From: a virus
Virus record (IMG/VR): IMGVR_UViG_3300048922_000475
Coordinates: 1 to 40,973 of that record
Strand: one strand, 5' to 3'
DNA length: 40,973 nt
Shown in pieces: positions 4,648 to 25,192 of this stretch (within the stretch, counting starts at the first letter, position 1; the number at the start of each line of letters is the position of its first letter). Below the pieces are notes generated by a model. The model saw nothing but the letters and a program-made list of their open reading frames with translations. It was not told the DNA's origin and did no database searches. Both the position numbers and the translations under genes were made by a program.

Positions 4648-5013
4648 TGAGCCGTTAAGAAGTCATATATATTTCCTTATAGCTTTCTAACATATAGAAA
4701 TCGACTGAACCTATATACTGCGATAAATAGCAATTTAGTAAAAGAAATAACCGATAATATTGACTATGTAGAAACCGTCTACAGCCTACTTAAAACCAAC
4801 ATGGCGGTTTTTGGTGATTTCCGACTGCTTATTTATCATTTTAGGATATCGGGTGATGCTGATCCCACTTTTGGTAATGGATTTTTTACTGCACGGATCA
4901 CGCAGCTGTCTGGTGTGCACACTGCAATGGTTACATCTTCATGGACAGGTGATACATGGAGTATGGTATTTACCAGTTACGACACAACAAATTTTACAAA
5001 GAAACTTTCATAA
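4648..5013 (+). pseudogene. Silent, oppositely oriented tail-fibre tip module
   Basis: The frame is open from 4648 to the TAA at 5011-5013 (121 codons) but has no promoter and no convincing start. An internal ATG at 4801 lacks a ribosome-binding site. The C-terminal part (GNGFFTARITQLSGVHTAMVTSSW...) has the look of a phage fibre tip: Gly/Thr/Ser- and aromatic-rich beta sequence ending in a short basic tail. It faces the fibre gene tail to tail with a 4-bp gap. The in-frame residues INSNLVK match SLNSNLAK of the fibre through a 19/20-bp inverted repeat. I read it as the unexpressed alternative tip of an invertible fibre gene, or the relic of one. Confidence 0.6.
4724..4743 (+). repeat. Left inverted repeat of the putative fibre invertible segment
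   Basis: TAAATAGCAATTTAG (4724-4738) followed by TAAAA matches the reverse complement of 5243-5262 at 19 of 20 positions. The core is itself a dyad (TAAAT-AGCA-ATTTA), as recombinase crossover sites often are. It lies in frame, coding INSNLVK. Confidence 0.7.
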
Positions 5014-5017
5014 ATAA

Positions 5018-5875
5018 TCATTTTACAAAATACACATAATTAATTCTTGTGGCTCCATTACGTGCCGACGACAGGTGCACACGTAAATTATTGGTTTGAA
5101 CTGTACATCCCACCACATAACCAGGGTAAACAGTATAATCTCCATTGAATGCTATTGGTCCCCAGTTACCACCTATTCCGGTAATTGGTATATCAATATA
5201 ATTATTGCCGTTCGGGTCTGATATTACAGTTCCGCTTACAATTTTTGCTAAATTGCTATTTAGCGACTTAACTACTGCCGTAAGATTGGTGCCGATATCC
5301 AGATCTTCGCTCATGCCAATACGCTCATAGAGTTTATGGACAAAAGCCGATGTTGGTACCTTATTTTGATCGTTGGCATCCATATTGGTTAACATATTTT
5401 TCAGCAGAGCATTTTCATTCAATCCCATGGTAACTGCTATTGACTTGGATATCTTTCCTAGTGCGGTAGCAATAGCTTCACCGGCTATGATGTTGGCCAG
5501 CTCTGTAGCCTGGGTAAATAGTGTGTTTACATCAACGCCACCATCACTCCCTACCTTGATTCCATTACTGCCTTTTACAAGCCCTAGAGCCTCTTGCGTG
5601 GCTTTCTTTACGCTAATACTACCGTCAGTACTGACCTCCGTTGTTGCTCCGTCTGGTTTTACTGTTCCTACACTGTTAGCCGTAGCCTTACCCGTTCCCT
5701 GGGCTGATACCTGCCAATAGGCGGTATTTGTTGGCAAAGATCCCAAAGGTAGATCCGTGTGTGCTACATAGCTGCTTCCGTCAAACTCTACTAAATTCAG
5801 CAGACCATACTTTGTGTCAGGATCATACGTCCCCATAGGGCGAATTCCGATTGTTCCATATTCTGTAACTGCCAT
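5018..5875 (-). CDS. Tail fibre / receptor-binding protein with exchangeable tip
   Basis: The 285-residue protein has an N-terminal attachment part (residues 1-60, GTYDPDTKYGLLNLVEFDGSSYVAHTD, a carbohydrate-binding-like fold common in phage fibres). A shaft with repeated VGTVKPDGATTEVSTDG and LGLVKGSNGIKVGSDGG stretches follows (60-120), then a helical part (120-210). The beta-rich tip is at 212-285 (YTVYPGYVVG...LRVHLSSARNGATRINY). It should mediate host adsorption. Its ATG overlaps the stop of the upstream fibre-base gene (TAATG), showing coupled translation. The inverted repeat covers codons 205-211, so the tip can in principle be swapped with the silent module at 4648-5013. Confidence 0.85.
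   Translation of the reverse strand: MAVTEYGTIGIRPMGTYDPDTKYGLLNLVEFDGSSYVAHTDLPLGSLPTNTAYWQVSAQGTGKATANSVGTVKPDGATTEVSTDGSISVKKATQEALGLVKGSNGIKVGSDGGVDVNTLFTQATELANIIAGEAIATALGKISKSIAVTMGLNENALLKNMLTNMDANDQNKVPTSAFVHKLYERIGMSEDLDIGTNLTAVVKSLNSNLAKIVSGTVISDPNGNNYIDIPITGIGGNWGPIAFNGDYTVYPGYVVGCTVQTNNLRVHLSSARNGATRINYVYFVK
5243..5262 (-). repeat. Right inverted repeat of the putative fibre invertible segment
   Basis: This lies inside the fibre gene at codons 205-211 (LNSNLAK). Read on the minus strand it contains GCTAAAT-AGCA-ATTTAGC, a perfect 7-bp dyad with a 4-nt spacer. It matches 4724-4743 in opposite orientation with one mismatch, and in the same codon phase. Confidence 0.7.
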
Positions 5876-6993
5876 TATGCGATTATCTCCTCTCCATAAA
5901 ATTTACCTTTTTCATACCAGAATCTAATGCCTGTTGCTTCCGTTTCACTCATGAATTTCATAGTGACAGGATCTACATAGAAACGGGGTATAGATATTTT
6001 TGCTATCTGATCTACTTGCTCTTTTAAACTCTTTGTCTGCTGGCAATACCACCTTGCATTGTCCTCCACATCTTCCGGAACAACTCCACCTTCAGAATAC
6101 CGCTTTGCCATTAATGCACTGGCCTGTGCTTCTCCAGCGCTCTGATCCGCAGCCACTTGGCTGGCCCCTGCCTCCGTAGCTTTATCCCTTGCCACCTGCT
6201 CACTGGTTCCTGCTGCCGTTGCCTTTTCAGTGGTAGTTAATACATCCGCTGCAGTTTTATTTGCTGCCGAGGTTGCAGATGCAGCTTTCTGCGTAGTGAT
6301 AACCTTCTGTTCTTCTGCAAAACTAGCACTCTCCGCAGCCGCCTGAGCATTCTGGCCGGACGTTGCTGCATCTTCTTTTACCTGATCATAATAAAACTTT
6401 GCATTATCCGTTTCGCTTCCCGGAAAATCCGGATCCCCCAAGGTATAACGTTTTGCAAATTTTTGATACTGTAGAGCTGCATCACGGGCCGATTGAGAAT
6501 CAAGCATATACTGCCGAAACTCTGTTTGTATAGCAGAGTCCAGCTTCGCCATGGTCACAGATCCGTCCACGATCCTGGCGGTTATGGTACGATCCTGAAT
6601 CTGCATTGCTATGGTGGAAGTGCTATCCACTGAATAGATAAACCGGGTTAAGTTAATAACCTTCTGTGTGCCGTCTGCCAGAGTGAGAACAAGTTCATTC
6701 TGATCATTGATATCAAAGTTTGTTACTACCTTTTCAATATCAAGATCGTAAGTCTTTACTGTACCATTTTGCAAAGTAATTGTAAGTATTCCGGTATCAG
6801 AATCTAAAGAGACGTCTTTAACAAGCGCATTAATCTGAGACTTATCTGCTTTGTTTGCGTCTAAGTGGACGATTCGGTTATCCGCCTCTTTTATGCCTTG
6901 ATCCATATAATTCAAACTCATTGCATTAATTGCGGTCTTTTGTGACGGTAAATTTAGCCAGTTTCTAAGTGTATGAAATGGTTGAAATGCCAT
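5875..6993 (-). CDS. Fibre-base / upper baseplate protein (BppU-like architecture)
   Basis: The 372-residue product has an N-terminal structural region. Around residues 55-130 are two related beta repeats (DTGILTITLQNGTVKTYDL, NELVLTLADGTQKVINL). A long Ala/Thr/Ser-rich helical stretch at about 195-300 (AAAESASFAEEQKVITTQKAASATSAANK) forms a coiled-coil shaft. The C-terminus has the FYVDPVTMKFMSETEATGIRFW pattern. Such proteins link the distal tail to the receptor-binding fibre encoded next. It overlaps its neighbours at both ends (stop/start TAATG at 6993 and 5875), giving a three-gene coupled set. Confidence 0.75.
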   Translation of the reverse strand: MAFQPFHTLRNWLNLPSQKTAINAMSLNYMDQGIKEADNRIVHLDANKADKSQINALVKDVSLDSDTGILTITLQNGTVKTYDLDIEKVVTNFDINDQNELVLTLADGTQKVINLTRFIYSVDSTSTIAMQIQDRTITARIVDGSVTMAKLDSAIQTEFRQYMLDSQSARDAALQYQKFAKRYTLGDPDFPGSETDNAKFYYDQVKEDAATSGQNAQAAAESASFAEEQKVITTQKAASATSAANKTAADVLTTTEKATAAGTSEQVARDKATEAGASQVAADQSAGEAQASALMAKRYSEGGVVPEDVEDNARWYCQQTKSLKEQVDQIAKISIPRFYVDPVTMKFMSETEATGIRFWYEKGKFYGEEIIA

Positions 6994-24632: not shown

Positions 24633-25061
24633 TTATTTCTTTGTGTATTCCAGAACTACATACATAGGGCAGGAAGCATACATACCATCCTGGTTTAAAA
24701 TATCATAATAAATATTTTCGTTTACGGTATTGTACCAAATGGTAAAGAACGAAGCAAAAGTTTTATTAGAATATATGTATGTGCAAGGAAGCGGAATCTG
24801 AGTAGTCTCGCTAGATGCATTTCCGTACAGATTAATAACTTTATCAATCTTAAGTGCGGAAACATTTGCATAAAGATTATTAGCGCCACTAACTGCTGCT
24901 GAAGTTCCAGAGATCACTTTCCTATAAATTGGCTTACCGTCAATCCACTTGCCGCATACAGTCTCTTCTGTAGAATAATCATTCTCTGCTCCAGTACCGC
25001 TATTACCTGTACCACAACCATCACCACACCTTACCATCTGTAAACAAAATCTGTCTTCCAT
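24633..25061 (-). CDS. Orphan tail-fibre-tip-like protein
   Basis: The 142-residue protein has a Gly-rich N-terminal part (VRCGDGCGTGNSGTGAEND). The pattern YSTEETVCGKWIDGKPIYRKV follows, known from the distal part of many phage tail fibres. A beta-rich C-terminus ends in MYVVLEYTKK. It lies about 18 kb from the fibre genes, between the late regulator and the terminase, enclosed by related terminators H2 and H3. It may be an accessory receptor-binding or decoration protein. AGGAGG lies 8 nt before the ATG at 25061; the in-frame start at 25112 would include that site. Confidence 0.75.
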   Translation of the reverse strand: MEDRFCLQMVRCGDGCGTGNSGTGAENDYSTEETVCGKWIDGKPIYRKVISGTSAAVSGANNLYANVSALKIDKVINLYGNASSETTQIPLPCTYIYSNKTFASFFTIWYNTVNENIYYDILNQDGMYASCPMYVVLEYTKK

Positions 25062-25192
25062 AAATAAATCCTCCTCTGTTTGTTTTCCAGAACTATTTCT
25101 ACTGGATAACATTATTGTAAATCAACCACCCGACCATTAACAGGACACGAATCGGATGCGCTTTGCCCACTCCTGGCCATTTTTATACGCAA

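Follow-up and report, generated by a model that had tools for sequence, protein, structure and literature searches.

A predicted two-state tail-fibre tip switch at a codon-phased 14-bp site shared with related Bacillota prophages

How could a phage keep a second, silent C-terminus for its tail fibre beside the one in use, and what would exchange the two? This question is raised by a locus in IMG/VR virus record IMGVR_UViG_3300048922_000475, which was analysed over its whole length of 40,973 nt (here termed the window; Table 1). The fibre gene (5018-5875, minus strand) encodes 285 residues, a 204-residue shaft followed by an 81-residue tip starting with LNSNL. It converges on a silent frame (4723-5013, plus strand) that starts with INSNLVK and runs for 96 residues before its stop, and the two stop codons lie 4 bp apart. 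An initial annotation had described this convergent pair, and its coordinates were confirmed in our analysis. The 20-bp inverted repeat that it reported is also present but somewhat longer than claimed, spanning 23 nt of which 21 are paired. Within the arms, the 14-bp core TAAATAGCAATTTA is identical on both sides and is itself an imperfect dyad (TAAAT-AGCA-ATTTA), consistent with the internal dyad noted earlier for each repeat copy. In addition, both frames read the core in the same codon phase (L/I-N-S-N-L), as had been proposed, and recomputing the inversion product again yields a 300-residue fibre (204 + 96).

Table 1. Features of the predicted switch and associated genes in the window
Feature	Coordinates	Strand	Remarks
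Predicted invertible segment, core to core	4724..5262		539 bp; two inverted 14-bp cores around two convergent tip frames; layout also in relatives
Left crossover site TAAATAGCAATTTA	4724..4737	+	Inside silent frame, I-N-S-N-L
Right crossover site TAAATAGCAATTTA	5249..5262	-	Inside fibre gene, L-N-S-N-L; same core at same shaft position in relatives
Left arm, 23-nt inverted repeat	4721..4743	+	21/23 paired with 5243-5265
Right arm, 23-nt inverted repeat	5243..5265	-	Pairs with 4721-4743
Constant fibre shaft, 204 residues	5264..5875	-	71-87% identity in viral relatives as far as the site, where similarity ends for most
Expressed tip, LNSNL + 76 residues, stop included	5018..5263	-	Part of fibre gene; no homologue found
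Silent alternative tip, INSNL + 91 residues, stop included	4723..5013	+	No homologue found
Fibre-associated tail protein, directly upstream of fibre gene	5875..6993	-	Weak tail-fibre matches; kept beside the switch in relatives
Phage integrase: arm-binding domain, SAM-like, PF00589	39927..40973	+	Sole site-specific recombinase detected in window; unlikely to be the invertase

The frame and the inverted repeat might have arisen by coincidence, as would fit a silent tip that has no detectable homologue. However, at up to three mismatches the 20-mer is found in two places only in the 41-kb window, against 0.01 expected by chance, and a chance repeat is already refuted by relatives that carry the same site at the same place, which leaves this explanation extremely unlikely. 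The silent frame also has coding-like properties. Its codon use scores 0.125 per codon, on a scale where pieces of known window genes have a 5% point of 0.085 and a median of 0.202, and it is the sole coding-like frame among the six on that stretch; by the same measure the expressed tip scores 0.049 per codon. Given the composition of the silent-tip stretch, an open frame of 90 codons there has a probability of 0.0016.

Comparison with related prophages, which had been proposed as a check, revealed that the site and the convergent layout recur, and that a tip expressed in one prophage is silent and inverted in another on a near-identical shaft. In an IMG/VR scan with the fibre, the similarity of relatives mostly runs out at the site (residue 210-217). 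The core stands in frame at the shaft end in 11 viral relatives and in most prophage relatives, and in most of these an inverted core 250-2000 bp downstream heads a convergent tip frame. When species genomes were scanned with the shaft alignment, the same layout came up in prophages of Lacrimispora xylanisolvens, Hungatella MAGs and Clostridium sp. E02. In the genus of L. xylanisolvens ASCUSBR21 (G013), a relative of the shaft at E < 1e-60 is present in 9 of 25 genomes. These prophage relatives suggest that the window is probably a prophage of a gut-type Lachnospiraceae host of the Lacrimispora/Hungatella type. When the relatives' sites are compared, conservation covers only ~14 bp, with no strong consensus beyond.

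Several relatives depart from the simple layout. L078 (1501-1556, from MAG G014) has three near-identical site copies in direct tandem, 21 bp apart, within one fibre frame. In L239 (8936-11369), variant sites of sequence TAAATAGTGATTTA are inverted relative to each other at a distance of 2.4 kb and enclose a repeated tip fragment. In others, Abi_alpha and acyltransferase-3 genes are found as cargo inside or just past the tip segments (L003 7519-8328, L006 8066-8926, L009 6927-8027 and L044 9087-10184).

Sequence breakpoints in the relatives fall at the site. In phages with unrelated shafts, identity begins exactly at the core: for L059 and L151, for L154 and L165, and for the silent tip of L151 and the expressed tip of L058, 16-20 of 20 bases are identical from the core onward, compared with 2-9 of 20 upstream. 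The L058 and L059 prophages align collinearly at 98.5% identity through 4.3 kb of upstream DNA and shaft as far as the site. Past the site comes the ANK tip, which L058 expresses and L059 carries in silent, inverted form (95.7%). The same tip is thus found in both states in relatives whose backbones are 98.5% identical, and the window's tips are seen in one orientation. Because the partner tips of L058 and L059 also differ, an inversion plus a second event is needed to relate the two. The two-tip segment of L058 recurs at 92% in L246, on a different shaft and in the opposite orientation relative to it, and the EWK tip occurs on at least three unrelated shafts as well as in a silent pair that lacks a shaft. 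Where apparently the same isolate is represented both in IMG/VR and as a genome, the orientation is the same. L057 was set aside as orientation evidence, because one end of its contig repeats the other in inverted form, possibly through misassembly.

The centre of the site is also informative. Among 37 convergent pairs that match in their arms and have open frames, 26 have the same central 4 bp on both sides, and the discordant pairs involve a second, nested site or an arm match that is accidental. Where the centre is a rare variant (AGCG in L043 and AGTG in L215), both arms have it, which would be expected if strand exchange requires a matching overlap. The movement of tips among unrelated shafts, with breakpoints at the core, might also be produced by repeated horizontal swaps through general recombination, in which case the sites would be mere short homology used without a site-specific enzyme. 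This account is quite unlikely given that the convergent geometry recurs and that the sites are linked to one tyrosine recombinase group even in phages found without recourse to fibre or site; moreover, 14 bp is far under the usual RecA requirement. We instead consider it highly probable that the segment belongs to an evolved family of site-specific tip switches.

The identity of the enzyme is suggested by the genes that accompany the site, which are XerC/D-like phage tyrosine recombinases of ~350 aa that sometimes adjoin the tips (L061, L245) and sometimes lie far off. In L061, a 348-aa tyrosine recombinase identified by a Pfam match is placed between two tip pairs. Related enzymes of ~343-358 aa are encoded in many other fibre records, often at a distance from the tips and immediately ahead of a sigma-like late regulator. 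A further recombinase of the L061 type is encoded at L088:1489-2526. These proteins fall in the PF00589 group and contain the catalytic R-K-HxxR-H-Y residues, with R203, K228, H295, R298, H321 and Y331 invariant in A2. When IMG/VR was searched with the L061-type enzyme alone, the site was found in 15 of 30 records, a set that includes five records already known to hold it, and many of these have convergent pairs 480-730 bp apart; a reversed-pattern control matched 0 of 30. Of the records unmatched in the first pass, G031, G040 and G041 were examined more closely, and these three proved to have convergent pairs with shorter or altered cores.

Beside a 370-aa tyrosine recombinase, L245 (2935-6357) and L251 (record 2531839012_000002) store at least eight silent tips in convergent pairs, an arrangement that makes them a candidate for a true multi-tip shufflon.

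Within the 41-kb window, no recombinase of the site-associated group was found, only the integrase, and a PF00239 search detected no serine resolvase, which bears out the earlier statement that no invertase gene is present. It had been suggested on this basis that the phage integrase or a general host recombinase would have to act. We consider either less likely than a dedicated phage tyrosine recombinase supplied in trans, given that genes of this kind go with the site in relatives. The integrase is the only tyrosine recombinase in the record, but it is of the arm-binding lambda-like type and has just 25% identity to the L061 enzyme over the catalytic part. In addition, serine recombinases (PF00239) occur in only two records among the relatives, G010 and G006, where they measure 485 and 551 aa and by this length are probably integrases, so that the tyrosine enzyme found there besides them is probably not one. 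Inversion by the prophage's own integrase is accordingly very unlikely, and we strongly favour the tyrosine recombinases of the site-associated group as the agent.

Taken together, we regard it as very probable that 4724-5262 is a two-state tip switch driven by a phage XerC/D-like tyrosine recombinase, whether acting in trans or now locked. In the proposed mechanism, the enzyme would recombine the two inverted TAAATAGCAATTTA sites and invert the 539 bp between them, so that the 204-residue shaft is joined in frame to either tip through the L-N-S-N-L codons. The tip joined to the shaft would be made in the fibre and the other would be silent, giving a two-state switch of the receptor-binding tip. 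The site is one of a family that serves many Lachnospiraceae prophages, in which tips are also traded at the site between unrelated fibres. An invertible fibre tip with alternative C-termini, as initially annotated, is supported at the family level by the relatives' site, layout and two-state tip.

Since the 41-kb record contains no gene for this recombinase, the switch would be either served in trans by another prophage in the same cell or locked. A locked relic would descend from an active switch whose recombinase was lost, with the orientation fixed and the silent tip left over; it shares the family-level explanation and differs only on the activity of this copy, and is therefore not exclusive of the reading above. 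The window record has no dedicated recombinase, and neither do other pair-bearing records (G011 and the MAGs G014 and G017), all of which are fragments or MAGs. Against a relic, the two cores are identical and undamaged, neither tip frame is interrupted, the silent frame retains coding-like codon use, and the window record starts and ends at gene boundaries, a trimming to 41 kb that leaves room for a recombinase in trans. We judge a relic and a still active copy about as likely, putting the relic at a serious possibility below even chances and activity in the present host only slightly short of them; supply of the recombinase from another prophage is plausible. In L. xylanisolvens ASCUSBR21, the recombinase gene (G013:C1:496596-497631; L093/L204/L211) is split into two frames, and the tips of that strain may thus be locked. 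In L. xylanisolvens DSM 3808 (L042), one contig carries an intact pair together with an uninterrupted recombinase gene.

A further, tentative idea is that many unrelated Lachnospiraceae prophages share one standardised site, which would allow the recombinase of one prophage to invert or transplant tips in another prophage of the same cell. A supporting case is genome 2531839012, in which one prophage has an EWK/VDK tip pair at its fibre locus and another has it in a silent array, the two copies matching at 98.8% over the 594 bp from core to core. If this idea is true, enzyme-less phages such as that of the window would be clients of a shared tip-exchange system.

The predicted switch can be compared with several known inversion systems. 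Mu Gin, P1 Cin and p15B Min likewise produce a two- or multi-state fibre C-terminus from convergent alternative frames, and the initial comparison with Gin and Cin therefore holds for the layout. It does not hold for the enzyme class, as Gin, Cin and Min are serine invertases that use 26-bp sites with a Fis enhancer, whereas no Gin/Hin-type serine recombinase was found in the window with PF00239 and the enzymes associated with the present site are tyrosine recombinases. The R64 shufflon recombinase Rci is a tyrosine recombinase that shuffles alternative C-termini onto one constant gene, in common with the present family. However, R64 diversifies a plasmid pilus adhesin and uses other sites, and its closest analogue here is the L245/L251 multi-tip array rather than the two tips of the window.

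The closest known system is Rin, a comparison made within open-access full text, so that a Bacillota description may exist elsewhere. The locus had been thought a possibly undescribed switch, yet inversion of receptor-binding protein (RBP) genes by a tyrosine recombinase has already been published as the Rin shufflon of Bifidobacterium dnaJ2 prophages (PMC6109161) and is also described in Eggerthella lenta clade 1 prophages (PMC8778435). Rin combines a constant RBP N-terminus with alternative C-termini of ~95-100 residues, a predicted phage tyrosine-family invertase, and a short, in-frame, asymmetric 11-bp crossover site, rix (TTCCCTAACCC) (PMC6109161; PMC8778435). The window resembles Rin in that a constant N-terminus is joined in frame at a short repeat to dissimilar C-termini, and the present family shares its predicted enzyme class. 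In contrast, the site here is the 14-bp core and not rix, and the tyrosine recombinase that lies beside the RBP locus in Rin has no counterpart in the window, although one adjoins the tips in L061 and L245. The phages and hosts also differ (here Lacrimispora and related Bacillota), as does the gene order, with the recombinase often far from the fibre. Unlike in Rin, tips of the present family are common to unrelated shafts and are stored in pairs or arrays elsewhere. A second Bifidobacterium inversion of roughly 500 bp has two states and no adjoining recombinase, and is thought to be served in trans (PMC6109161).

The few described tyrosine-recombinase fibre switches thus gain a branch in the Bacillota, whose 14-bp site is defined and for which there are candidate enzymes. 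On this basis, these prophages would be expected to change host recognition inside one lysogenic population, and tips would be expected to pass from one phage to an unrelated one at a fixed, codon-phased site.

For the two tips of the window itself, IMG/VR contains no homologue, and neither was therefore seen in the opposite orientation. No GenBank phage record carries the window's fibre, no record with the two tips in either orientation was found, and a search for the silent tip in 397 genomes of G013's family, run without a positive control, returned no homologue. An AlphaFold2 model of the silent tip from single sequence reached a pLDDT of 51 and was discarded. The tips differ wholesale and not by scattered substitutions, a pattern that does not suggest a diversity-generating retroelement. 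Elsewhere in the window, a 159-aa frame (24633-25112, minus strand) with no core site nearby and no Pfam, PHROG or NCBIfam match appears fibre-tip-like by eye (GKWIDGKPIYRK...) and lies between the terminase genes and a sigma-like regulator.
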